Positions 10,467 through 21,853 of a DNA stretch of 64,000 bases are shown here, one piece after another. The stretch is taken from the NCBI RefSeq assembly GCF_001717585.1, contig NZ_CP017042.1, positions 719,501 through 783,500 on the forward strand. The letters are read 5' to 3'. The translations under genes and the position numbers were made by a program. How positions within the stretch are numbered: position 1 is the stretch's first letter; each line of letters begins with the position of its first letter. This DNA is from Selenomonas sp. oral taxon 920 (GTDB taxonomy: Bacteria > Bacillota > Negativicutes > Selenomonadales > Selenomonadaceae). A model generated the notes under the pieces. It ran no database searches. It worked only from the letters and a program-made list of their open reading frames with translations, and was not told where the DNA came from.

Positions 10467-10810
10467 ATGGGAGAGTTTGGAAGTCTGGGAATCTTTTTGC
10501 TGGTGGCACTGCTGTTCCCCGTCATGGCGCTCGGACCTGCGTTCCTCTTGCAGCCGAAGCAGCCGTCGCCGCAGAAGTACATTCCCTACGAGTGCGGTGT
10601 CGATCCGATCGGTTCGCCGTATGTGCAGTTCCGAGCGGGATATTTCCTCTACGCGCTGCTGTTCATCGTCTTTGACATCGAGACGGTGTTTCTCTATCCG
10701 TGGGCGGTGGAGTTCCAGATGCTCGGGCTGTTCGCACTGCTCGAGATGTTTGTCTTTGTCGGCATCCTTGCACTGGGGCTCGGCTATGCGTGGCGAAAGG
10801 GGGATCTGAC

Positions 10811-10820
<10 letters not shown>
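10467..10820 (+). CDS. nuoA: NADH-quinone oxidoreductase subunit A
   Basis: The 117-residue protein has three membrane helices and the family's conserved YECGVDPIG and [12 protein letters not shown] segments. It belongs to the membrane arm near the quinone site and begins the eleven-gene complex I operon. A strong AAGGAGG ribosome site precedes ATG 10467. Its last 10 bases overlap nuoB. Confidence 0.95.
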
Positions 10821-11346
<526 letters not shown>

Positions 11347-11350
<4 letters not shown>

Positions 11351-11835
11351 GGAAAAACTATGTATCTCCGGATGCGCTCGCCGGCATCAAACTCGCCTTT
11401 CCAAATGCAGAGTACGACGCGGAGACCGAGCGTCCTGCCGTCTTTATCGCTGCGGATGAGCTGATCGCACTGCTGACGTTTCTGCGTGACGACAGCAACC
11501 TGCAGCTGACGCGCGCGGAGAATGTGACGGCAGTCGACTGGAAGGATCACTTCGAGATGGTCTACCACCTCTTCGCCCCCGTTCCCCTGCATTGGCTGAC
11601 GGTGAAGGTGGCACTGGATCACGATGCTCCCGTCATTCCGTCGGCGACGGCGGTGTTCCCGGGCGTGGAATTCGAGGAGCGCGAGGTCTATGACCTTATG
11701 GGGATTGTCTTTACGGGGCATCCCGATCTCCGGCGCGTGTTCCACGTGGACAGCTTTGTCGGGCACCCGCTGCGCAAGGACTTTGTTCCCCCGCCGCCCC
11801 CGAACATCCCGCGCATACGGAAGGAGGGCTTCTGA
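11347..11835 (+). CDS. nuoC: NADH-quinone oxidoreductase subunit C
   Basis: A 162-residue peripheral-arm subunit of the 30-kDa family, without cofactor. The signature region [27 protein letters not shown] and the C-terminal HPLRKDF are diagnostic. It is a separate protein from NuoD, unlike the NuoCD fusion of enterobacteria. Its start overlaps the nuoB stop (ATGA) and its stop overlaps the nuoD start by one base (TGATG). Confidence 0.95.
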
Positions 11836-12935
11836 TGCCGAGAACCGAGACCTATACCCTCAACATGGGGCCGCAGCACCCGTCGACGCACGGCGTGCTG
11901 CAGGTACAGCTCGAGCTCGACGGCGAGCGCATCGTCAAGGCGACGCCGATCATGGGCTACCTTCATCGCGGTATTGAAAAGCTGCTTGAGGATCGGACGT
12001 ATCCGCAGGGGCTGCCCTATACGGATCGTCTCGACTATATCTCCTCGATGAACAACAACTTCGGCTATGCGCTTGCCGTGGAGGAGCTTGCGGGCATTGA
12101 GACAACGCCGCGTGCGGAGTACATCCGCGTTATTATGGCGGAGCTGAACCGCATCAACAGTCATTTGATCTTTATCGGGACACTTGCGAACGACCTCGGC
12201 GCGTCGACGGGGATGCTCTACTGCTTCCGCGACCGCGAGAAGATTCTCGACATCTTCAATCTCGTCTGCGGTGCGCGCCAGACCTTCCACTACATCCGCA
12301 TCGGCGGGGTAAAGGAAGACCTCACCTCCGAGGCAGAGGCTCTGATCCGTGCATTCCTCGACGAGGTGCCGATCTTCCTCGAGGAGTACAATAAACTCCT
12401 GACGGGCAACGAGATCTTCATCCGCCGTATTGTGGGCGTCTCGCCGATGACGACGGAGGAGGCCCTGTCCTACAATATGACGGGACCGAACCTGCGTGCG
12501 ACAGGGCTTGCCTTTGACCTGCGCAAGGTGGACGGCTACAGCGCCTACGATGATTTCGACTTCGACATCCCCGTCGGCAAGAATGGCGACAACTGGGATC
12601 GCTATATGGTAAAGCTGAACGAGATTGCCGAGAGCGCGAAGATCATCCGTCAGGCGATCGACGGACTGCCTGAGGGCGACTACATGGGCAAGAAGGTGCC
12701 GAAGGTTATCAAGCCGCCGAAGGGTGAGGTGTTCAGCCGCACGGAGGGCACGCGCGGCGAGCTCGGCTTCTACATCGTCAGCGATGGTACGACAAAGCCG
12801 TACCGCATTCACATCCGCCGCCCATCGTTCGTCAATATGCAGGGACTGAACGCGATGTGCCGCGGAATGTTCATCGGCGACTCGGTCGCCGCATATTCGT
12901 CCATCGACCCGATCATGGGCGAAGTGGACTGCTGA
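11835..12935 (+). CDS. nuoD: NADH-quinone oxidoreductase subunit D
   Basis: The 366-residue 49-kDa homologue, which shapes the quinone pocket with NuoB. The N-terminal NMGPQHPSTHGV holds the conserved quinone-site histidine region, MGYLHRGIEKL follows, and the protein ends in the typical GEVD motif. It descends from NiFe-hydrogenase large subunits but lacks the NiFe cysteines. Length is slightly short of the usual 390-400 residues. Confidence 0.95.
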   Translation: MPRTETYTLNMGPQHPSTHGVLQVQLELDGERIVKATPIMGYLHRGIEKLLEDRTYPQGLPYTDRLDYISSMNNNFGYALAVEELAGIETTPRAEYIRVIMAELNRINSHLIFIGTLANDLGASTGMLYCFRDREKILDIFNLVCGARQTFHYIRIGGVKEDLTSEAEALIRAFLDEVPIFLEEYNKLLTGNEIFIRRIVGVSPMTTEEALSYNMTGPNLRATGLAFDLRKVDGYSAYDDFDFDIPVGKNGDNWDRYMVKLNEIAESAKIIRQAIDGLPEGDYMGKKVPKVIKPPKGEVFSRTEGTRGELGFYIVSDGTTKPYRIHIRRPSFVNMQGLNAMCRGMFIGDSVAAYSSIDPIMGEVDC

Positions 12936-12948
12936 GGGGAGGAGGAAA

Positions 12949-13995
12949 ATGATGGAACTTTCTCTCTTGGCAAAGCTCGCGCTTGAACTGCGCGCACTCG
13001 TCTACGGTCTTGTGCCGATTCCGTTCGTCGTGGATCTCGTGCTGACGATGGTCGGCATCGCGATCCTGCTCGGGATCATCTCGATGGCGGCGATTGTCTT
13101 TACGTATGCGGAGCGCAAGATCTGCGCGTTCATTCAGGTGCGCATCGGCCCGAACCGCGTCGGCGGACGCTTTGGACTTCTCCAGCCGATTGCGGATATG
13201 CTGAAACTCATGAGCAAGGAGGACATCATGCCCCAAGGGGCGGACAAGGTGGTCTGGGCACTCTCGCCCGCGCTGCTCTTTGTTCCTGCGGCGCTTGTCT
13301 ATGCGTTCTTTCCGTTTGACGCAGGTGCGGTGCTCGCGGATGTGAATGTGGGCGTATTCCTGCTGTTCGCCGTCTCGGGGCAGGCAGTGCTGCCGTTCCT
13401 GATGGGAGGCTACGCGTCGAATAACAAGTATTCCTTTATCGGCGGCATGCGTATCGTCGGACAGATGCTCAGCTACGAGGCACCGCTGCTCTTTTCGCTG
13501 CTCGGCGTCGTCATGCTGACAGGCTCACTGCGGCTTGATGATATCGTGCAGATGCAGGCGCAGACAAGCTGGTTCATCTTCATGCAGCCGCTCGCGTTCA
13601 TCATTTTTCTGATCGCGGCGGTCGCGGAGACGAACCGCACCCCGTTCGATCTCGTCGAGGGTGAGTCCGAGATCATCGCGGGCCCCTTTACGGAGTACTC
13701 GGGGATGCGCTGGGCGCTGTTCTTCCTTGCGGAGTACGCGAACCTCTTGACGGCGGCGATTCTCGCGACGACGTTCTTCCTCGGCGGTTACAGCGGCCCC
13801 GAGTTCCTGCCGGGCTTCGTCTGGTTCGGACTGAAGGCGGTGCTCATGGTGCTGCTCATCATGTGGTTCCGTTGGACGTTCCCGCGCACGCGCGTCGATC
13901 AGATCCTCACCTTTGGCTGGAAGGTGCTCGTGCCGCTCTCGATTCTCAACGTCTTTTTGACGGGCATCGGGATGTATCTCGTCGGCATTGTCTAA
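12949..13995 (+). CDS. nuoH: NADH-quinone oxidoreductase subunit H
   Basis: A 348-residue membrane subunit with about eight helices, joining the peripheral and membrane arms. TYAERKICAFIQVRIGPNRVG and the AETNRTPFDLVEGESE motif with its conserved acidic residues are the family hallmarks. It directly follows nuoD; nuoE, nuoF and nuoG, which sit here in many operons, are absent. Confidence 0.95.
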   Translation: MMELSLLAKLALELRALVYGLVPIPFVVDLVLTMVGIAILLGIISMAAIVFTYAERKICAFIQVRIGPNRVGGRFGLLQPIADMLKLMSKEDIMPQGADKVVWALSPALLFVPAALVYAFFPFDAGAVLADVNVGVFLLFAVSGQAVLPFLMGGYASNNKYSFIGGMRIVGQMLSYEAPLLFSLLGVVMLTGSLRLDDIVQMQAQTSWFIFMQPLAFIIFLIAAVAETNRTPFDLVEGESEIIAGPFTEYSGMRWALFFLAEYANLLTAAILATTFFLGGYSGPEFLPGFVWFGLKAVLMVLLIMWFRWTFPRTRVDQILTFGWKVLVPLSILNVFLTGIGMYLVGIV

Positions 13996-14007
13996 GGGGG
14001 TGCCTAC

Positions 14008-14691
14008 ATGTTTGGAAAAGGTTTGCTCACAGGCATGAGCGTCACATGGAAGCACTTCTGGGGCAAGAAGGAGACCTTCTGCTATCCTGAAGAGAAACTT
14101 CCGATGACGGACAATTTCCGCGGGGGGAACCTCGCGATGGACTGGCGTGTCTGCATCGGCTGCTCGATGTGTGCGAATGCGTGCCCGAACAAGGCACTCG
14201 ATCTGACGATCGTGCAGGACGCGAAGAAGAAGCGCCACATGAAGTCCTATGTGCACAAGTCGGGACGCTGTCTCTACTGCAATCTCTGCGTGGAGGTCTG
14301 CCCCGTCAAGACCCTCGTCTGGGACAAGGACTATGCGATTTCGACGTGGAGCAAGGAGACGATGACACACGATGCGATGACCGACCAGGATCGCACGGAT
14401 CTCGAGGAATTCCTTGCACAGGTCGAGGTGGAAGCGGCGGAGGAAAAGGCACAGAAGGAAGCCGCCGCCAAGGCAAAGGCAGAGGCCGCCGCGAAGGCGA
14501 AAGCCGAGGCGGAGAAAGCTGCGTCGGAGAATCCCGAGGCAGAAAAGCCGACGGCAGCAGAAAAACCCGCTGCGACTGCCGATGCGGCAGAAAAAGTGGC
14601 AGCAGCGAAAGACGCCGCAGCAAAGTCTCCGGCGGCAGAGGAGAAACCTGTCGAAACGAAGGACGCAGAGCAGGAAGGAGGGTCGGCATGA
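14008..14691 (+). CDS. nuoI: NADH-quinone oxidoreductase subunit I with a long low-complexity tail
   Basis: The first 110 or so residues are a normal NuoI ferredoxin-like core with two 4Fe-4S clusters: C49, C52, C55, C59 and C88, C91, C94, C98, each followed by proline. From about residue 138 to 227 the protein becomes an Ala/Lys/Glu-rich, mostly helical or disordered tail built from imperfect AAAKAKAEA-type units, with no counterpart in the usual 160-180-residue NuoI. In a complex without NuoEFG, NuoI would be the exposed electron entry point, so the tail may contact the donor. That last point is inference. Confidence 0.92.
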   Translation: MFGKGLLTGMSVTWKHFWGKKETFCYPEEKLPMTDNFRGGNLAMDWRVCIGCSMCANACPNKALDLTIVQDAKKKRHMKSYVHKSGRCLYCNLCVEVCPVKTLVWDKDYAISTWSKETMTHDAMTDQDRTDLEEFLAQVEVEAAEEKAQKEAAAKAKAEAAAKAKAEAEKAASENPEAEKPTAAEKPAATADAAEKVAAAKDAAAKSPAAEEKPVETKDAEQEGGSA

Positions 14692-15182
14692 GCATTGTAT
14701 TCTATTTTCTGGCGGCGGTGACGATCATCGGCGCACTCGGTGTCGTGCTGTCCCCGAATGTCGTGCACAGCGCACTCTTTCTCGTCCTCTCCTTTATCGG
14801 AGTGGCGGCGATCTACTTCTATATCGGCGCGGAGTTCCTTGGTGCGGTGCAGCTCATGGTCTACAGCGGAGCGGTCGCCGTCCTTGTCGTCATGGCGATC
14901 ATGCTGACGCGGCGGGACTCGATGGCGCAGTCGAATCCCTCGCAGAAGCTCTTTCGCCGCGTGGTGACGGGGCTGCTTGCAGGCGGATTCTTCTTCCTCA
15001 TCGGGCTCGGCATTGTGCTTTCGCCGCTGCCGGATGGGGAGCTCGGCACATCTGCGGGTGCACAGGAGATTGCGCAGCTGATGCTCGGCACCTACGTTCT
15101 GCCGTTTGAAATCGTGGCGGTGCTCCTGCTTGTTGCCATGGTCGGGGCGCTTGTCCTTGCGAGGGGAGGGGACACGGCATGA
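14688..15182 (+). CDS. nuoJ: NADH-quinone oxidoreductase subunit J
   Basis: A 164-residue membrane subunit with five predicted helices. VVHSALFLVLSFIGVAAIYFYIGAEFLGAVQLMVYSGAVAVL (helices 2-3, quoted in part) is characteristic of the NuoJ family. The start at ATG 14688 overlaps the nuoI stop by 4 bases and has GGAGG upstream; the open frame further upstream is a shadow of the nuoI tail. It is followed by nuoK with a 4-base overlap. Confidence 0.92.
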   Translation: MSIVFYFLAAVTIIGALGVVLSPNVVHSALFLVLSFIGVAAIYFYIGAEFLGAVQLMVYSGAVAVLVVMAIMLTRRDSMAQSNPSQKLFRRVVTGLLAGGFFFLIGLGIVLSPLPDGELGTSAGAQEIAQLMLGTYVLPFEIVAVLLLVAMVGALVLARGGDTA

Positions 15183-15484
15183 TCGGACTTCCTGATCTCC
15201 TCTTTGTCGCCGCCGTACTGTTCTGCATCGGTCTTTACGGACTCCTCACGCGGCGCGGCATTATCCCGATCCTCATGTGCGTGGAGCTGATGCTGAACGC
15301 GGTGAACATCAACCTCATCGCGTTTGACCGTTTCTATGCGCACAACATGGAGGGACAGCTCATGGCGCTCTTCTCGATCGCAGTTGCCGCATCCGAGATC
15401 GCCGTCGGGCTTGCCCTCGCATTCCGTCTGTATCAGATCCGCTTCACGACGAATGTCGATGAACTGGACACGCTCAGAGATTAG
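15179..15484 (+). CDS. nuoK: NADH-quinone oxidoreductase subunit K
   Basis: The 101-residue, three-helix antiporter-like small subunit. ILMCVELMLNAVNINLIAF carries the conserved membrane glutamate of the proton channel, and a second conserved glutamate occurs in AASEIAVGLAL. It lies between nuoJ (4-base overlap) and nuoL (14-base gap). Confidence 0.95.
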   Translation: MIGLPDLLFVAAVLFCIGLYGLLTRRGIIPILMCVELMLNAVNINLIAFDRFYAHNMEGQLMALFSIAVAASEIAVGLALAFRLYQIRFTTNVDELDTLRD

Positions 15485-15498
15485 GGGAGGAGAGCGAT

Positions 15499-17400
15499 AT
15501 GTTTACATTTGCACTCACGCATGCCTATCTGATCCCCCTCTTCCCCGCAATTGCGTTCCTCATCATCGGACCGTTCACGCGGCAGGAGAAGAATCTCTCC
15601 GCAGCGATCGCGATTACGATGATGTCGCTCGCGTTTGCGTTCTCCATCTTTGTTGCGCTCGCCACCGTGAACTATCAGATCACGATGAATGACCCCTATG
15701 TGATGAAGGCGCTCTGGGCGCAGATCGGCGATGTGAAACTGACGATGGGCGTGCTCATCGACCCTCTGACGGCGATGATGCTCGTCATTGTGACGCTCGT
15801 TTCACTGCTCGTCTATATCTACTCCGTCAGCTACATGGAGCACGACGAGGGGATGGGGCGCTTCTTTGCGTTCATCTCTCTGTTCTCGGCGTCGATGCTC
15901 GGACTCGTCGTCTCGGTCAACTTCCTCCAGCTCTACGTGTTCTGGGAAGGGGTCGGCCTCTGTTCTTACCTGCTGATCGGCTTCTACTACCACAAGGTAT
16001 CGGCGCGTGAGGCGGCAAAGAAGGCGTTTATCACAACGCGCATCGGTGATTTTGGGATGCTTGTCGGCATCCTGCTCGTGCAGATGGTATTCGGGACGAT
16101 GGACTTCATCGAGCTGCGCATGCTCGTTCCGCCGTACGTTGTTGTTGCGGGCACGGGCTTTTTGACCATCATTGGTCTCCTGCTCTTTATGGGACCGATC
16201 GGCAAATCGGGGCAGTTCCCGCTCCATGTCTGGCTGCTCGACGCAATGGAAGGGCCGACGCCCACGTCGGCGCTCATCCATGCGGCGACGATGGTCGCTG
16301 CGGGTGTCTATCTCGTCGCGCGCGCATTCTTTATCTTCAGCGAATCGCCGTTTGTCATGGACTTTATTGCGGGCTTGGGAGCCTTTACGGCGCTTTTTGC
16401 GGCGATTATCGCCGTGACGCAGCGGAAGTTCAAGTCGGTGCTTGCGTACTCGACGATCAGTCAGCTCGGCTACATGATGCTTGCGGTCGGCGTGGGTGCG
16501 TTCTCTGCCTCGATGTTCCACCTCATGACGCATGCCTTCTTCAAGGCAATGCTCTTCCTCTGTGCGGGCGCTGTCATGCACGCGCTGCACGATGAGACGG
16601 ACATTACGAAAATGGGGGGGCTCTGGCGGAAGATGCCGCTGACGTTCGCCGCGATGCTTGTCGGCGTGCTTGCCATTTCGGGCATTCCGCCATTCTCGGG
16701 CTTCTTCTCAAAGGATGAGATCCTCGCGGCAGTCATGCATGCAAGCACGCCGCTCTACGTGATAGCGACGTTTACGTCCTTTCTCACGGCATTCTACATG
16801 GCGCGGCTCCTCATCGTGGCATTCCTCGGTGAGAGCCGCAGCCCGCACGAGGCACACGAGGCAGACGCATTCATGCGCTGGCCGATGATCATGCTCATGC
16901 TGCTCACGATTGTGAGCGGTGCGTGGGGCTACTTCGGCGGTTTCTCCGTCTGGATCAATGCAGGTGTTCCGCACCACGAGACGATTGACTGGACGGTTGC
17001 AGGGACAAGCACGGCACTCGCTCTCGTCGCATTCGCTGCGGCGTACCAGATCTACGGGCGTCACAGCCTGCGCTCGGCAATGCGTGCGCGCAGCTTCGGC
17101 TTCCTGTACCGCGTCATCTACCACAAGTTCTACATCGACGAACTCTACGGCTACTTCCGTGAGCGGCTCGTTTACGGCACGGCGCTGATCCTGAAATGGG
17201 TCGATGAAAAGATCTTTGACAACATTATGATTGGCCTGGGTGCGTACGCGCTCGCGACGAGCGATCTCCTCACGGAGTCTGCAAACGGACAGGCGCAGCG
17301 CTACGTCGTTGTATTCTACACGGGCGTACTCATTCTCCTGTGCTATGCCCTCTACTGGGCAGTGCAGATCATCGCTTACTGGGGAGGTGGCCTGCGATGA
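15499..17400 (+). CDS. nuoL: NADH-quinone oxidoreductase subunit L
   Basis: A 633-residue Mrp-antiporter-type proton-pumping subunit. FWEGVGLCSYLLIGFYY, GPIGKSGQFPLHVWLLDAM and STISQLGYMMLA are the classic proton-channel segments, with the lysine and glutamate residues retained. The C-terminal region includes the lateral amphipathic helix that braces NuoM and NuoN. The stop overlaps the nuoM start (ATGA). Confidence 0.95.
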   Translation: MFTFALTHAYLIPLFPAIAFLIIGPFTRQEKNLSAAIAITMMSLAFAFSIFVALATVNYQITMNDPYVMKALWAQIGDVKLTMGVLIDPLTAMMLVIVTLVSLLVYIYSVSYMEHDEGMGRFFAFISLFSASMLGLVVSVNFLQLYVFWEGVGLCSYLLIGFYYHKVSAREAAKKAFITTRIGDFGMLVGILLVQMVFGTMDFIELRMLVPPYVVVAGTGFLTIIGLLLFMGPIGKSGQFPLHVWLLDAMEGPTPTSALIHAATMVAAGVYLVARAFFIFSESPFVMDFIAGLGAFTALFAAIIAVTQRKFKSVLAYSTISQLGYMMLAVGVGAFSASMFHLMTHAFFKAMLFLCAGAVMHALHDETDITKMGGLWRKMPLTFAAMLVGVLAISGIPPFSGFFSKDEILAAVMHASTPLYVIATFTSFLTAFYMARLLIVAFLGESRSPHEAHEADAFMRWPMIMLMLLTIVSGAWGYFGGFSVWINAGVPHHETIDWTVAGTSTALALVAFAAAYQIYGRHSLRSAMRARSFGFLYRVIYHKFYIDELYGYFRERLVYGTALILKWVDEKIFDNIMIGLGAYALATSDLLTESANGQAQRYVVVFYTGVLILLCYALYWAVQIIAYWGGGLR

Positions 17401-18929
17401 TGACATTTCCAATTCTCTCGGTCATCCTCCTGACCCCCCTCGTGGCGGCACTCATCATCGCGCTGCTGCCGGGGCGGCTGCACGATACAATCCGTCAGCT
17501 CTCGGCGTTTGCGATGATGGTGGCGACCATTCTCACGCTCTTTGTCTACGCAGACTACGACATGGCGCGCGGCGGGATGCAGTACACGGAGTACATCCCG
17601 TGGATCACGGATCTCGGCGTTGCATATTCGCTCGGTGTTGACGGGATCTCGCTGCCCATGCTGCTCCTCTCAAGCGTTGTGGGGCTTGCCGCCGTGTTCA
17701 GCTCGTGGAACATCGAGAAGCGGGTCAAGGAGTATTTCGTACTGCTCCTCATCGTGATCGCGGGTGTGTCGGGTGCATTTCTTGCGCGCGACCTCTTCTT
17801 CTTCCTCGTGCTCTGTGAGATGGTCGTCATTCCGGCGTATCTTATGGTGCTCATCTGGGGCTCGTCGGAGCGTGTCACGAAGGAACATGCAGCGATGAAG
17901 ATGACCATTTTCCTGCTCGTCGGCTCTGCATTTATGCTGCTCGGCGTGCTCCTCCTGTATGTGAGCGCGTACGAGTCGGGGATGCGTACGTTTGATTTTG
18001 AGGCGCTTGCCGCCGCTGCTCTTATGGGCAATATCTCATGGGAGATTCAGGTGACGGCATTCTTCCTCCTGCTCGTCGGTTTTGGATCGCATCTGTCGAT
18101 GTTCCCGTTCCATATCTGGTCGCCCGACGGCTATGCGGGTGCACCGACGGCAATCTCCATGATTAACGCGGGTGTGCTGAAAAAGATCGGCGGCTACGCG
18201 CTCATCCGCATCGGCTTCTTCATCCTGCCGCTCGGTGCAAAGTTCTGGGCTCCCGTAATCGCCGTGCTCGCGATGATCAACGTCATCTACGCGTCCTACA
18301 TTGCACTCGCACAGCGCGATATCAAGTACATGATCGCGTATTCCTCGGTTTCCCACATGGGCTACGTCCTGCTCGGCTTTGCGGCACTGAACGTCGTGAG
18401 TGTGAGCGGTGCGGTCGCCTACATGGTGGCGCACGGCATCATGCTTGCGCTCTTCTTCTCGCAGGTCGGCTATGTCTACGAGAAAACGGAGCTGCGCAGC
18501 GTCGGCGATCTCTGGGGTCTCGCACATCACATGCCGCACATCACGGTCGGCTTTATGCTCGCGGGGCTCTGCTCACTCGGGCTGCCGGGACTGATCGGCT
18601 TTATCCCGGAGTTTACGATCTTCGTCGGCATCATCGAGGTCTATCCCGCGATTGCCGTCATTGCCGTCTCGGGCATCATCTTCACGGCGTTCTACGTCCT
18701 GCGCATGCTCGCGCGCGTTCTCTTCGGACCGCGTGTGGAGCGATTTGCGAAATTCCCCGATGAGCGCAGGATCGACATTGTGCCGCTCGTCGTACTCGGC
18801 GTGTTCCTCGTCGGCTTCGGCGTATTCCCGGGGCTCCTCATGGATGTGGTGGATACGGGCGTTGCCCCGCTTGCGCCGCTCTTTGAGTTGATTCAGGATG
18901 CACCGACGATTCTGGGAGGTGGTCGCTGA
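17397..18929 (+). CDS. nuoM: NADH-quinone oxidoreductase subunit M
   Basis: A 510-residue antiporter-like subunit. LCEMVVIPAYLMVLIWG contains the conserved channel glutamate, and HLSMFPFHIWSPDGYAGAP and YSSVSHMGYVLLG are NuoM hallmarks. Two ATGs occur in tandem (17397 and 17400); I use the first, which overlaps the nuoL stop and follows GGGGAGGTGG. The stop overlaps nuoN by one base. Confidence 0.95.
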   Translation: MMTFPILSVILLTPLVAALIIALLPGRLHDTIRQLSAFAMMVATILTLFVYADYDMARGGMQYTEYIPWITDLGVAYSLGVDGISLPMLLLSSVVGLAAVFSSWNIEKRVKEYFVLLLIVIAGVSGAFLARDLFFFLVLCEMVVIPAYLMVLIWGSSERVTKEHAAMKMTIFLLVGSAFMLLGVLLLYVSAYESGMRTFDFEALAAAALMGNISWEIQVTAFFLLLVGFGSHLSMFPFHIWSPDGYAGAPTAISMINAGVLKKIGGYALIRIGFFILPLGAKFWAPVIAVLAMINVIYASYIALAQRDIKYMIAYSSVSHMGYVLLGFAALNVVSVSGAVAYMVAHGIMLALFFSQVGYVYEKTELRSVGDLWGLAHHMPHITVGFMLAGLCSLGLPGLIGFIPEFTIFVGIIEVYPAIAVIAVSGIIFTAFYVLRMLARVLFGPRVERFAKFPDERRIDIVPLVVLGVFLVGFGVFPGLLMDVVDTGVAPLAPLFELIQDAPTILGGGR

Positions 18930-20383
18930 TGCTGAACGCTATGAATTTTTCTGCCATCTCCGTTGAGATTGCGATTGCCGTCTTGATGGCGGTGGTGCTC
19001 GTCCTCGACCTTGTGCTCAAAAAGGACGCGCCGCGCTGCCCCGTGGTCTGGCTGACCGCTGCAGGGCTTCTCGGTGTGCTCGCGCTTGCCGTGGGCATGT
19101 ACCCGCCCGATGGCGGTGCGACCGCATTCTACGCAGGACTTTACATTGTTGACGGCTACTCCGTGTTCTTCAAGATCCTCTTCATCATCGGGATTCTCTC
19201 GACCGTGATCTTTGCGGCGGACTACGTGGAGCAGACGCTGCGGCACAAGGGAGAGTTCTATCTGCTCCTGCTCTCGGCGCTGCTCGGCATGTGTGTCCTT
19301 GCCTCGGCGAACGACCTCATGACGGCATTTGTCGGGCTTGAGCTGATGACGATCTCGTTCTACGCGCTCGTCGCGCTCCGTACGGATGCGCCGCTCTCTG
19401 CGGAGGCTGGCATCAAGTACCTTGTCTTCGGCTCCGGCTCGACAGCAGTGCTGCTCTACGGCATGAGCCTCGTCTACGGCATGACGGGGACGATGGTGTT
19501 CCAGAATATTGCACAGGGACTCGGGCTCGTGTTCTCGCTCGGGCTGATCGGCGTGGTATTCATCCTCGCGGGCTTCTTCTTCAAGCTCTCGATCATTCCG
19601 TTCCATCTCTGGGCGCCGGATGTGTACGAGGGGGCACCCGCACCCGTGACGGCACTGCTCGCCATGTGCTCGAAGGCGGCGGGCATTGCGATTCTCCTGC
19701 GTGTCCTCTTCGTTGCATTCCCGTTCCTCGCGGCATACTGGGCACATCTGCTCGCCGTGCTTGCGGGCATCTCGATGGTGGGCGGGAACCTCATGGCGTT
19801 CCGTCAGACGAACATCAAGCGCATGCTTGCATACTCGTCGATTGCGCAGGCGGGCTACATGATGACCGCGATGGTCGCAACGAATGCGGCGGGCATCAAG
19901 GCAGTCCTCTTCTATGCGATGATCTACGTCTTTGCAAATGTCGGTGCGTTTGTCACCGTTTCCTATCTTGAGATGAAGCGCGGCGGTGCGGACTTTGAGA
20001 GTGTGCGCGGACTTGCGAAGGACTCGCTCCTTCCGGCGGGCATCCTGATGGTCGCGCTGCTCACGATGGCGGGCATCCCCCCAACGGCGGGCTTCGTCGG
20101 GAAGATCTACATCTTCTCCGCCGCGATTGACGCAGGCTATCTCTGGCTCGCGGGCGTCGGCTTCGTCATGTCGATGATGTCCGTCTACTACTACCTGCTC
20201 GTCATCAAGGAGATGTTCCGCGATGTCGAGGAGGGGGAGAAGTGGACGGAGGAGCATCTTCATCTGCCGCTTCCCGCAAGCGCGATGGGGGTCATCGCAG
20301 TCGCATTTACCCTCATCATCGGCGTCTGGGCAGAGCCGCTTTCGATCTTCACGAATATTGCAGTCTACACCTTTATGAGATAA
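18929..20383 (+). CDS. nuoN: NADH-quinone oxidoreductase subunit N
   Basis: The 484-residue antiporter-like subunit that closes the operon. The conserved channel residues lie in VGLELMTISFYALVAL, FFKLSIIPFHLWAPDVYEGAP and YSSIAQAGYMM. A GC-rich terminator hairpin follows directly, so the operon contains exactly eleven nuo genes. Confidence 0.95.
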   Translation: MLNAMNFSAISVEIAIAVLMAVVLVLDLVLKKDAPRCPVVWLTAAGLLGVLALAVGMYPPDGGATAFYAGLYIVDGYSVFFKILFIIGILSTVIFAADYVEQTLRHKGEFYLLLLSALLGMCVLASANDLMTAFVGLELMTISFYALVALRTDAPLSAEAGIKYLVFGSGSTAVLLYGMSLVYGMTGTMVFQNIAQGLGLVFSLGLIGVVFILAGFFFKLSIIPFHLWAPDVYEGAPAPVTALLAMCSKAAGIAILLRVLFVAFPFLAAYWAHLLAVLAGISMVGGNLMAFRQTNIKRMLAYSSIAQAGYMMTAMVATNAAGIKAVLFYAMIYVFANVGAFVTVSYLEMKRGGADFESVRGLAKDSLLPAGILMVALLTMAGIPPTAGFVGKIYIFSAAIDAGYLWLAGVGFVMSMMSVYYYLLVIKEMFRDVEEGEKWTEEHLHLPLPASAMGVIAVAFTLIIGVWAEPLSIFTNIAVYTFMR

Positions 20384-20488: not shown

Positions 20489-21853
20489 ATGATGAAGGGA
20501 AAGAAAATCGCGGGGCTTTTGCTGTGCGGACTGCTCTTTATGGGCGCGAACGCAGAGGCGTCGGGAGAGTTTCCGTATAAGAATGCGGTGCTCGCACATC
20601 GTGCGCCCGATGGGAGTATCGGCTTTGTTGCGGGACCGGATCTGCCCGTACTGAAGGTGTTCCGTACGGAGGGAGCAGCACCAGACTACTACATCCGCTT
20701 CGAGGCGAAGAAGGGGGCGTTCCAGAAGGAGACGGCAATTCACGCGCGTGTGCTTGCCGACGGAAAAGAGATTGCACTCGAGCCGGTCGGGGATGAAGTG
20801 CGTATGCACTCTTCCAAATGGTTTGCAGGGTGGTATTGCCTGTCTGCGGATGATGTTTCCGCCATGGGCAGCGCGGCGGAGTTCTCCTTTCAGCTCGTAG
20901 GCGCAGGAGATAAGGTGCTCTGGACGCAAAAGGGCAAGCTCAAGACGGCGGAGGCAATGCAGAAAATTGCAAAGGCAGAGCCAAAGGACTATCTGCGCGA
21001 GGGGAAGATACGGGCAGAGGCTGCGGCAGAGTCTGTGCGTGCGGATTCCAGACCGCGCGTATTCCTGCCCAATGTCTCACCGGAGACTGTTCAAGTGCGG
21101 ATCTATGACTATCTGGAGGAACTGAAGAAGGATAAGGAGACCAAGGCTGACTGGCAGGGGTTCACGCCCTACGTTCATACGAATGAGTGTATTCTGGCTG
21201 TGTTGGGGGAATCAATCGGGGACAGCATCCCGCTTGTCACGTTCGAGACGATTCCCTATCAGGGCGGGACACTGCTCGCGATGATGAAGGATCAGGAGTA
21301 TTATGACAAATATGCCAAGCAGTTCTTCACGATCGGCATGATGACCGCCGACGGGTTTGTTATCGATCTGACGTCGGTCTGGCGCGGCACTGCCGATCGG
21401 TGGGATGGATTCCTCAACAACCTGTATCGAGAGATGAGCCCGCACGCAGAATTCCCCTTTGAGATCAGCCACAAGAATGAAAAGGGCGAGGGGAATCGCT
21501 TCTTTGTCACGGAGCCGCGCACCGCGCGCCTTGCCGCAGGCGATGAGATTATCGCCGTTGATGGTGCCTCTGCTGCGTGGTACAAGCCGAACGAGCTGCG
21601 ACTTGTACTCCTGCAAAAGCAGGGGACCGTCGTTTTCCGCGTCAGGCATACGGATGGGACAGAGGAGGAGATTGCGCTTGCACCGGAGATGTGTCCGCCG
21701 ACAAGAATGCCGGCAGAGAATCTGGATCGCGCGAAGAAGCTGGCGTACTTTGCGGAGAAGAAAGCCGCCGCGTCCGAGTCCTACGTTCATACGCAGGGAA
21801 ATTACCCAAAACTTTTCTCGTTGATGGATGAGAGCTATCGCGCAGCACCGTGA
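20489..21853 (+). CDS. exported protein with a C-terminal PDZ-like domain
   Basis: I do not recognise a named family for this 454-residue protein. It has a clear Sec signal peptide (KKIAGLLLCGLLFMGANAEA, cleavage near residue 25). The central part has beta-rich stretches and an Ala/Glu/Lys helix near 150-180. Residues about 340-410 resemble a PDZ domain: LAAGDEIIAVDGASAAWYK, then LRLVLLQKQGTVVFRVRHTDG. No catalytic Ser/Lys or HD motif is obvious, so a binding or scaffold role in the periplasm is more likely than proteolysis. It stands alone between the nuo terminator and a hairpin. Start ATG 20489 is followed by a second in-frame ATG. Confidence 0.75.
   Translation: MMKGKKIAGLLLCGLLFMGANAEASGEFPYKNAVLAHRAPDGSIGFVAGPDLPVLKVFRTEGAAPDYYIRFEAKKGAFQKETAIHARVLADGKEIALEPVGDEVRMHSSKWFAGWYCLSADDVSAMGSAAEFSFQLVGAGDKVLWTQKGKLKTAEAMQKIAKAEPKDYLREGKIRAEAAAESVRADSRPRVFLPNVSPETVQVRIYDYLEELKKDKETKADWQGFTPYVHTNECILAVLGESIGDSIPLVTFETIPYQGGTLLAMMKDQEYYDKYAKQFFTIGMMTADGFVIDLTSVWRGTADRWDGFLNNLYREMSPHAEFPFEISHKNEKGEGNRFFVTEPRTARLAAGDEIIAVDGASAAWYKPNELRLVLLQKQGTVVFRVRHTDGTEEEIALAPEMCPPTRMPAENLDRAKKLAYFAEKKAAASESYVHTQGNYPKLFSLMDESYRAAP

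Follow-up and report, generated by a model that had tools for sequence, protein, structure and literature searches.

The NuoI subunit of Selenomonas sp. oral taxon 920, encoded in an eleven-gene complex I operon without nuoEFG, continues past its two-cluster core into a long C-terminal tail rich in Ala, Lys and Glu. The tail looks like a lineage-specific add-on rather than a ferredoxin-catching arm. The reading that we prefer, at a probability of roughly 0.4 and by analogy with a better described enzyme, is that this lineage-specific arm on the 11-subunit complex I may have a capping, assembly or stabilising role at the face that NuoEFG covers elsewhere, and that the electron donor would dock on a basic hairpin within the NuoI core.

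Results

An eleven-gene nuo operon without nuoEFG

Within the window, the 64,000-nucleotide stretch of DNA analysed here, open reading frames and Pfam matches for all 11 subunits define a nuoABCDHIJKLMN operon on the forward strand (10467..20383). The genes run in the order A-B-C-D-H-I-J-K-L-M-N, with nuoI between nuoH and nuoJ; in the list of reading frames nuoD (ending at 12935) and nuoH (starting at 12949) directly adjoin. nuoEFG is absent at the operon, and a genome-wide search covering NuoF (PF01512), which was positive in 9 of 14 control genomes, returned 0 matches in the source genome (2.44 Mb, completeness 99.8). The premise of the initial annotation, a NuoI operon lacking NuoEFG, is borne out by these eleven genes and by the NuoF search. 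The reading-frame list holds no additional gene within the operon, and an adaptor gene inside it was rejected on that ground. Downstream of nuoN, at window positions 20489-21853, lies a frame for a 454-aa protein whose start resembles a signal peptide and which has no match in NCBIfam.

Rnf was considered as a rival ferredoxin outlet in the genus and was rejected, since none of the 14 genus genomes has an RnfC (TIGR01945) match above the cut-off; weak matches in 12 of the 14 fall on NuoI. With no RnfC over the cut-off in these genomes and NuoF not found in the source genome, ferredoxin oxidation by the complex is plausible. Flavodoxin-type proteins are encoded in all 14 genus genomes, and because these include the two without NuoI, such proteins do not track the complex.

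The NuoI core and the sequence of its tail

nuoI (14008..14691, forward strand) encodes 227 aa. Its core, residues 1-109 (14008..14334), holds two 4Fe-4S motifs, has a net charge of +7 and matches 4Fe-4S families in Pfam, and the NuoI models were matched below their cut-offs (TIGR01971 at 91.7 bits against 113.05), so that the name NuoI rests on the motifs and on the position of the gene. An alignment of 27 sequences shows no variation at any of the eight cluster cysteines, and the nearest named NuoI records are those of S. infelix (96% over the core), S. artemidis, S. flueggei and S. felix.

Positions 14417-14691 correspond to residues 137-227 and the stop codon. Tail-less relatives in the same family end their NuoI at residues 133-139, and the excess is therefore about 90 residues. 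Every one of the 12 NuoI proteins found among 14 genus genomes, the source genome included, has the extension, which confirms the Ala/Lys/Glu-rich tail of about 90 residues reported in the initial annotation; an artefact or annotation error was rejected for the same reason. The remaining genus genomes, G004 and G008, gave only weak ferredoxin-motif matches to NuoI, which suggests that they are without the complex.

The AAAKAKAEA-type repeats previously described for the tail are present, but the array is short: in repeat and DNA pattern searches a 24-nt unit (AAAKAKAE; 14461..14510, forward strand) occurs about 2.1 times. Beyond it the tail is looser Ala/Lys/Glu sequence and then Ala/Pro/Glu/Lys sequence. 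A DNA pattern for AAKAKAEA matched the source genome twice, both times within nuoI, and the reversed-pattern control gave 0 matches. The A+K+E fraction of the tail reaches 0.84 in its best 50-residue stretch. For comparison, 400 other genes were called in the window and in 20 stretches of 20 kb, together about 0.46 Mb of the 2.44 Mb, with a reading-frame filter that excluded NuoI itself; 0 of them reached 0.70. The highest, at 0.68 in 50 residues, was an 846-aa reading frame elsewhere in the source genome (L291:16766-19306). Ala/Lys/Glu-rich, helix-prone segments also occur in TolA domain II and in the N-terminal region of IF-2; the likeness is one of composition only, and no homology is claimed.

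Predicted structure and selection along the tail

In an AlphaFold2 prediction of NuoI made with 27 sequences, residues 126-174 (14383..14529, forward strand) form a single continuous helix of 49 residues, and residues 175-227 (14530..14688), the fast-evolving Ala/Glu/Lys/Pro-rich distal tail, are predicted to be disordered. Block-mean pLDDT is 89-95 for the helix up to residue 170, 72 for residues 171-180 and 42-50 from residue 181 on; it is 54-64 for residues 1-40. The tail is probably rod-shaped first and then floppy. The flexible arm proposed earlier thus survives for the last 50 or so residues and gives way to one predicted helix at residues 126-174, which begins ahead of residue 137, where the stretch was formerly taken to start. 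AlphaFold2 may overpredict helix in Ala/Lys/Glu sequence; its separation of two neighbouring Ala-rich stretches argues against a pure composition effect. The hydrophobic moment of the predicted helix is low (0.06-0.22), and opposite charges spaced i to i+3/i+4, a pattern to be expected if the helix stands alone, were only weakly above 5000 shuffles (P 0.063 for residues 126-174 and 0.080 for residues 142-174).

Selection was computed on the 12 genus NuoI sequences (66 pairs). dN/dS is 0.036 in the core, 0.057 in residues 110-141, 0.095 in residues 142-168 and 0.41 in residues 169-227, with pS of 0.41-0.55 in every part. Because dN/dS shifts near the helix boundary while pS stays within that range throughout, the repeat is old and maintained. 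Residues 110-168 are about 91% identical across the genus at pS of 0.41-0.51 and are therefore constrained by purifying selection, and residues 169-227 contain 36% gapped cells in a protein whose length ranges from 189 to 244 aa within the genus. The first half of the tail is thus old and kept, and its distal half can vary freely.

At the extreme C-terminus the sole conserved feature is a Gly-Gly terminus, encoded where nuoJ likely has its ribosome-binding site. This site, GGAAGGAGG (14673..14681, forward strand), was recognised by inspection of 12 loci and also encodes the last conserved tail residues; the nuoJ ATG follows at 14688 and overlaps the nuoI stop (ATGA). These last residues are likely dictated by the nuoJ site, and a conserved C-terminal peptide motif was rejected because of the coincidence.

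Distribution of long tails across operon types

Tail lengths are given from a landmark 22 residues beyond the last cluster motif; on this scale the NuoI of the window measures 107. The nuoD-nuoI gap and one NuoF sequence motif sorted the loci into 123 NuoEFG-less, 56 with NuoEFG and 22 of undetermined operon type, the last being left out of the NuoEFG counts. One set (L073-L092) had been chosen for long NuoI frames and another (L260-L279) through a NuoC search; L124 is cut by a contig end, and several of the named loci (L115-L139) duplicate genomes that also appear under G handles.

The family's other genera contributed 19 operons; 18 could be assigned, and all of these are NuoEFG-less. Seven of the 18 have 13-19 residues past the landmark and six have at least 45. 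Anaerovibrio, Pectinatus and Megamonas are the named tail-less members, and Mitsuokella, at 98 residues, is the named tail-bearing genus outside Selenomonas. Operons of other families of the class never reach 45 (0 of 19, maximum 40), and when the length-picked set and the named loci are excluded, 16 of 80 NuoEFG-less loci do so. Ala/Lys/Glu/Pro-rich NuoI tails recur elsewhere in the phylum. NuoEFG-containing loci from named genomes (n=34, mostly Chloroflexota) have 26-51 residues, with a median of 38. In NuoEFG-containing actinobacterial operons, at least 60 residues were found in 12 of 19 (A+K+E 0.21-0.28), where the 20 loci taken, of 123 genomes with a match, were mostly those nearest to a Nonomuraea query.

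This distribution shows that long tails are neither required by nor confined to the loss of NuoEFG, and exclusivity to NuoEFG-less operons was rejected on the actinobacterial counts. The earlier expectations that the tail would track operons without nuoEFG, and would not be equally present beside nuoEFG, both fail: family members with the same operon stop at 19 residues or fewer, other families fall short of 45, and actinobacterial operons with NuoEFG carry long tails, albeit of another composition. Since relatives with the same operon manage without it, the arm is dispensable for the basic reaction. On a core tree of few columns and many open forks (168 of 179 rows kept, identical C-terminal parts dropped), a tail of at least 45 residues takes 14 changes, and a tail of at least 45 of which at least half is A, K, E or P takes 8; the starred branches alone force 2 changes for the long NuoEFG-less group.

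Charge of the tail and a candidate donor site

All 12 NuoI proteins of the genus combine a tail of net charge -3 to -12 with a core of +5 to +7, and half of the net charge of the window's tail lies in its fast-evolving distal part. In cyanobacterial NDH-1, ferredoxin, which is acidic, is bound by a basic patch to which the hairpin of NdhI and a fragment from the NdhH C-terminus contribute, according to the available part of that account (PMC6992706). A basic surface complementary to acidic ferredoxin is not what the tail offers, being net acidic in all 12 proteins. The suggestion in the initial annotation that a charged arm docks ferredoxin or flavodoxin is thus not supported, given the sign of the charge and the absence of the tail from relatives with the same operon.

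By analogy with NdhI, the hairpin lying between the cluster motifs (residues 60-87, 14185..14268, forward strand; net +6, with a Lys/Arg cluster at residues 73-76) is a candidate ferredoxin-docking element, and a better one than the tail; an identical stretch is present in L052. Hairpins of net charge at least +2 occur in 66 of the 123 NuoEFG-less loci versus 0 of the 56 with NuoEFG, and hairpins at or below 0 in 34 of 123 and 56 of 56, respectively, a contrast that amounts to a single phylogenetic comparison because NuoEFG status changes only once on the NuoI tree. Median hairpin length is 28 in NuoEFG-less loci versus 34 in those with NuoEFG. L279, the one NuoEFG-containing operon found in the phylum, is NuoEFG-like in this respect (-2, 34 residues). 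The basic hairpin is not universal, since a group distinguished by an arm on NuoC (described below) has hairpins of net -1 to 0. PDB alignments for the hairpin were to polyferredoxins and FwdF only.

Attachments on other subunits and in other lineages

NuoI overhangs its profile by at least 40 residues in 21 of the 123 NuoEFG-less loci, and each other subunit does so in 0-3. Without the 20 length-picked loci the NuoI count is 10 of 103, and when named repeats are also removed it is 4 of 80, with NuoJ at 3 of 80 and the rest at 0-1. In the same 80 loci an overhang of at least 30 is found for NuoI in 9, for NuoJ in 3 and for the rest in 0-1. The NuoI counts are lowered because its profile was built partly from tailed sequences. 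In operons with NuoEFG, measured against profiles from distant sequences, NuoH, NuoJ, NuoM and NuoN overhang at least as often as NuoI. The idea that the NuoI C-terminus is an outstanding extension hotspot of NuoEFG-less operons was withdrawn, its excess being modest on recount.

Elsewhere, NuoEFG-less NuoI carries a conserved, helical-looking domain of about 75 residues behind a short linker (L073-L082). The genomes that carry it are nine from another family of the phylum (G308, G378, G460, G399, G260, G284, G159, G419 and G332) and one from a further family (G197); the NuoI of L074 has two copies. The domain gave no significant match in Pfam (3 examples) or the PDB. A third group of NuoEFG-less operons (L195-L197 and L260-L262; G483, G446 and G360) has a NuoC with an N-terminal arm of the AKAKAAALAKQK type. 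These NuoC proteins measure 462, 229 and 441 aa, and NuoI in the same operons extends 19 residues past the landmark.

It could be imagined that NuoEFG-less complex I offers, at its electron-input end, an attachment site that lineages have equipped in different ways with docking or tethering modules for different donors: the Ala/Lys/Glu helix on NuoI in Selenomonas and Mitsuokella, the 75-residue NuoI domain in another family and the Ala/Lys arm on NuoC in a third group. We regard this as quite improbable, and the modest NuoI excess on recount made it less probable than before. If true, such modules could help to trace the missing donors of the 11-subunit enzyme.

Discussion

Residues 139-180 of E. 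coli NuoI contact NuoG, NuoB, NuoF, NuoD and NuoE, and the available part of that account describes such extensions as stabilising the arm (PMC8357420). The E. coli extension belongs to the same subunit and the same end as the one described here, and likewise lies past a two-cluster core. It differs in being extended with one helical turn and in being bound to its five partners, whereas the present tail is predicted as helix followed by disorder in a complex without NuoEFG. Binding to NuoG, NuoF and NuoE has no counterpart here, with nuoEFG absent from the operon and no NuoF found in the genome. Because of the E. coli contacts, the C-terminus of NuoI should point to the bare face, and the location argument of the initial annotation was a sensible one given that the E. 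coli extension touches NuoG, NuoF and NuoE.

A closely similar operon is that of Desulfitobacterium hafniense, whose 11-subunit complex has the same nuoABCDHIJKLMN without nuoEFG; ferredoxin is its proposed, unproven donor, and the available text on it mentions no NuoI tail (PMC11238625). Prevotella also has a NuoABCDHIJKLMN complex, of unsettled role in the part of the literature account at hand (PMC10542786). Cyanobacterial NDH-1 resembles the present complex in lacking the NADH module and in having a basic hairpin between the clusters, where lysines of NdhI bind ferredoxin; as far as the same partial account goes, it is unlike it in its additional NdhM, N, O, S and V and in a site formed by the hairpin and the NdhH fragment, not by an NdhI tail (PMC6992706). 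The NuoC arm (NCBIfam NF005832, PRK07735) is likewise of low complexity and sits on a NuoEFG-less operon; it differs in subunit and in end, and is presumably of independent origin. Searches of the open-access literature turned up no description of the NuoI tail or of the NuoC arm. The 11-subunit enzyme and the question of its donor were already known, to judge from the available text (PMC11238625); the present tail would add to a known theme, the elaboration of tails on complex I subunits.

In the reading we prefer, the arm would consist of a helix about 7 nm long (about 49 residues) with some 50 disordered, acidic residues behind it, and would run along or over the surface that is occupied by NuoEFG in 14-subunit enzymes. 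The conserved helix may cap, assemble or stabilise the exposed electron-input face much as the E. coli NuoI extension does, the distal end would be a loosely constrained tail, and a soluble donor (ferredoxin or flavodoxin) would dock on the basic core hairpin and not on the tail. The capping role is drawn by analogy with E. coli, where the tail binds chiefly NuoG, a subunit absent here. It is doubtful, though a serious contender, that the tail is instead mostly non-functional low-complexity growth, by slippage and drift, at a tolerated C-terminus bounded by the nuoJ ribosome-binding site. A distal dN/dS of 0.41 with 36% gapped cells, the span of 189-244 aa in one genus, the 14 changes needed for tails of at least 45 residues and the tails of similar length in NuoEFG-containing Actinomycetota are all consistent with such growth, but the near identity of residues 110-168 at high pS speaks of constraint, and the composition is extreme compared with genes sampled from the same genome.

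We consider it unlikely that the arm serves to tether or dock one particular soluble donor, or an adaptor so far unrecognised, in which case the helix would act as a spacer and the distal part as the bait. The conserved residues 110-168 would suit this, as would a C-terminus that should face the electron-input end (PMC8357420, in the part available) and an 11-subunit complex for which, in the available text, no common donor was found and several partners are held possible (PMC11238625). The complex may also be a main ferredoxin outlet, given no NuoF in the source genome and RnfC in 0 of 14, and flavodoxin-type proteins are encoded. The tail is net acidic, however, and its supposed bait is hypervariable, with no conserved motif besides the likely nuoJ site; relatives with the same operon lack the tail, the operon has no extra gene, and the flavodoxin-type proteins also occur in the two NuoI-less genomes. 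An acidic lid, in which the tail would gate electron entry by occupying the basic hairpin in competition with acidic ferredoxin, is highly unlikely: tail and core are of opposite charge in 12 of 12 proteins and the hairpin is +6, but there is no conserved acidic motif, and half of the net charge of the window's tail is in the fast-evolving part.

The electron donor of 11-subunit complex I is an open question in the bioenergetics of anaerobes, as posed in the available text on the Desulfitobacterium enzyme (PMC11238625). The present analysis offers the basic hairpin of NuoI, in place of the tail, as a testable set of residues, and it names lineages with unusual NuoI and NuoC attachments for partner searches.
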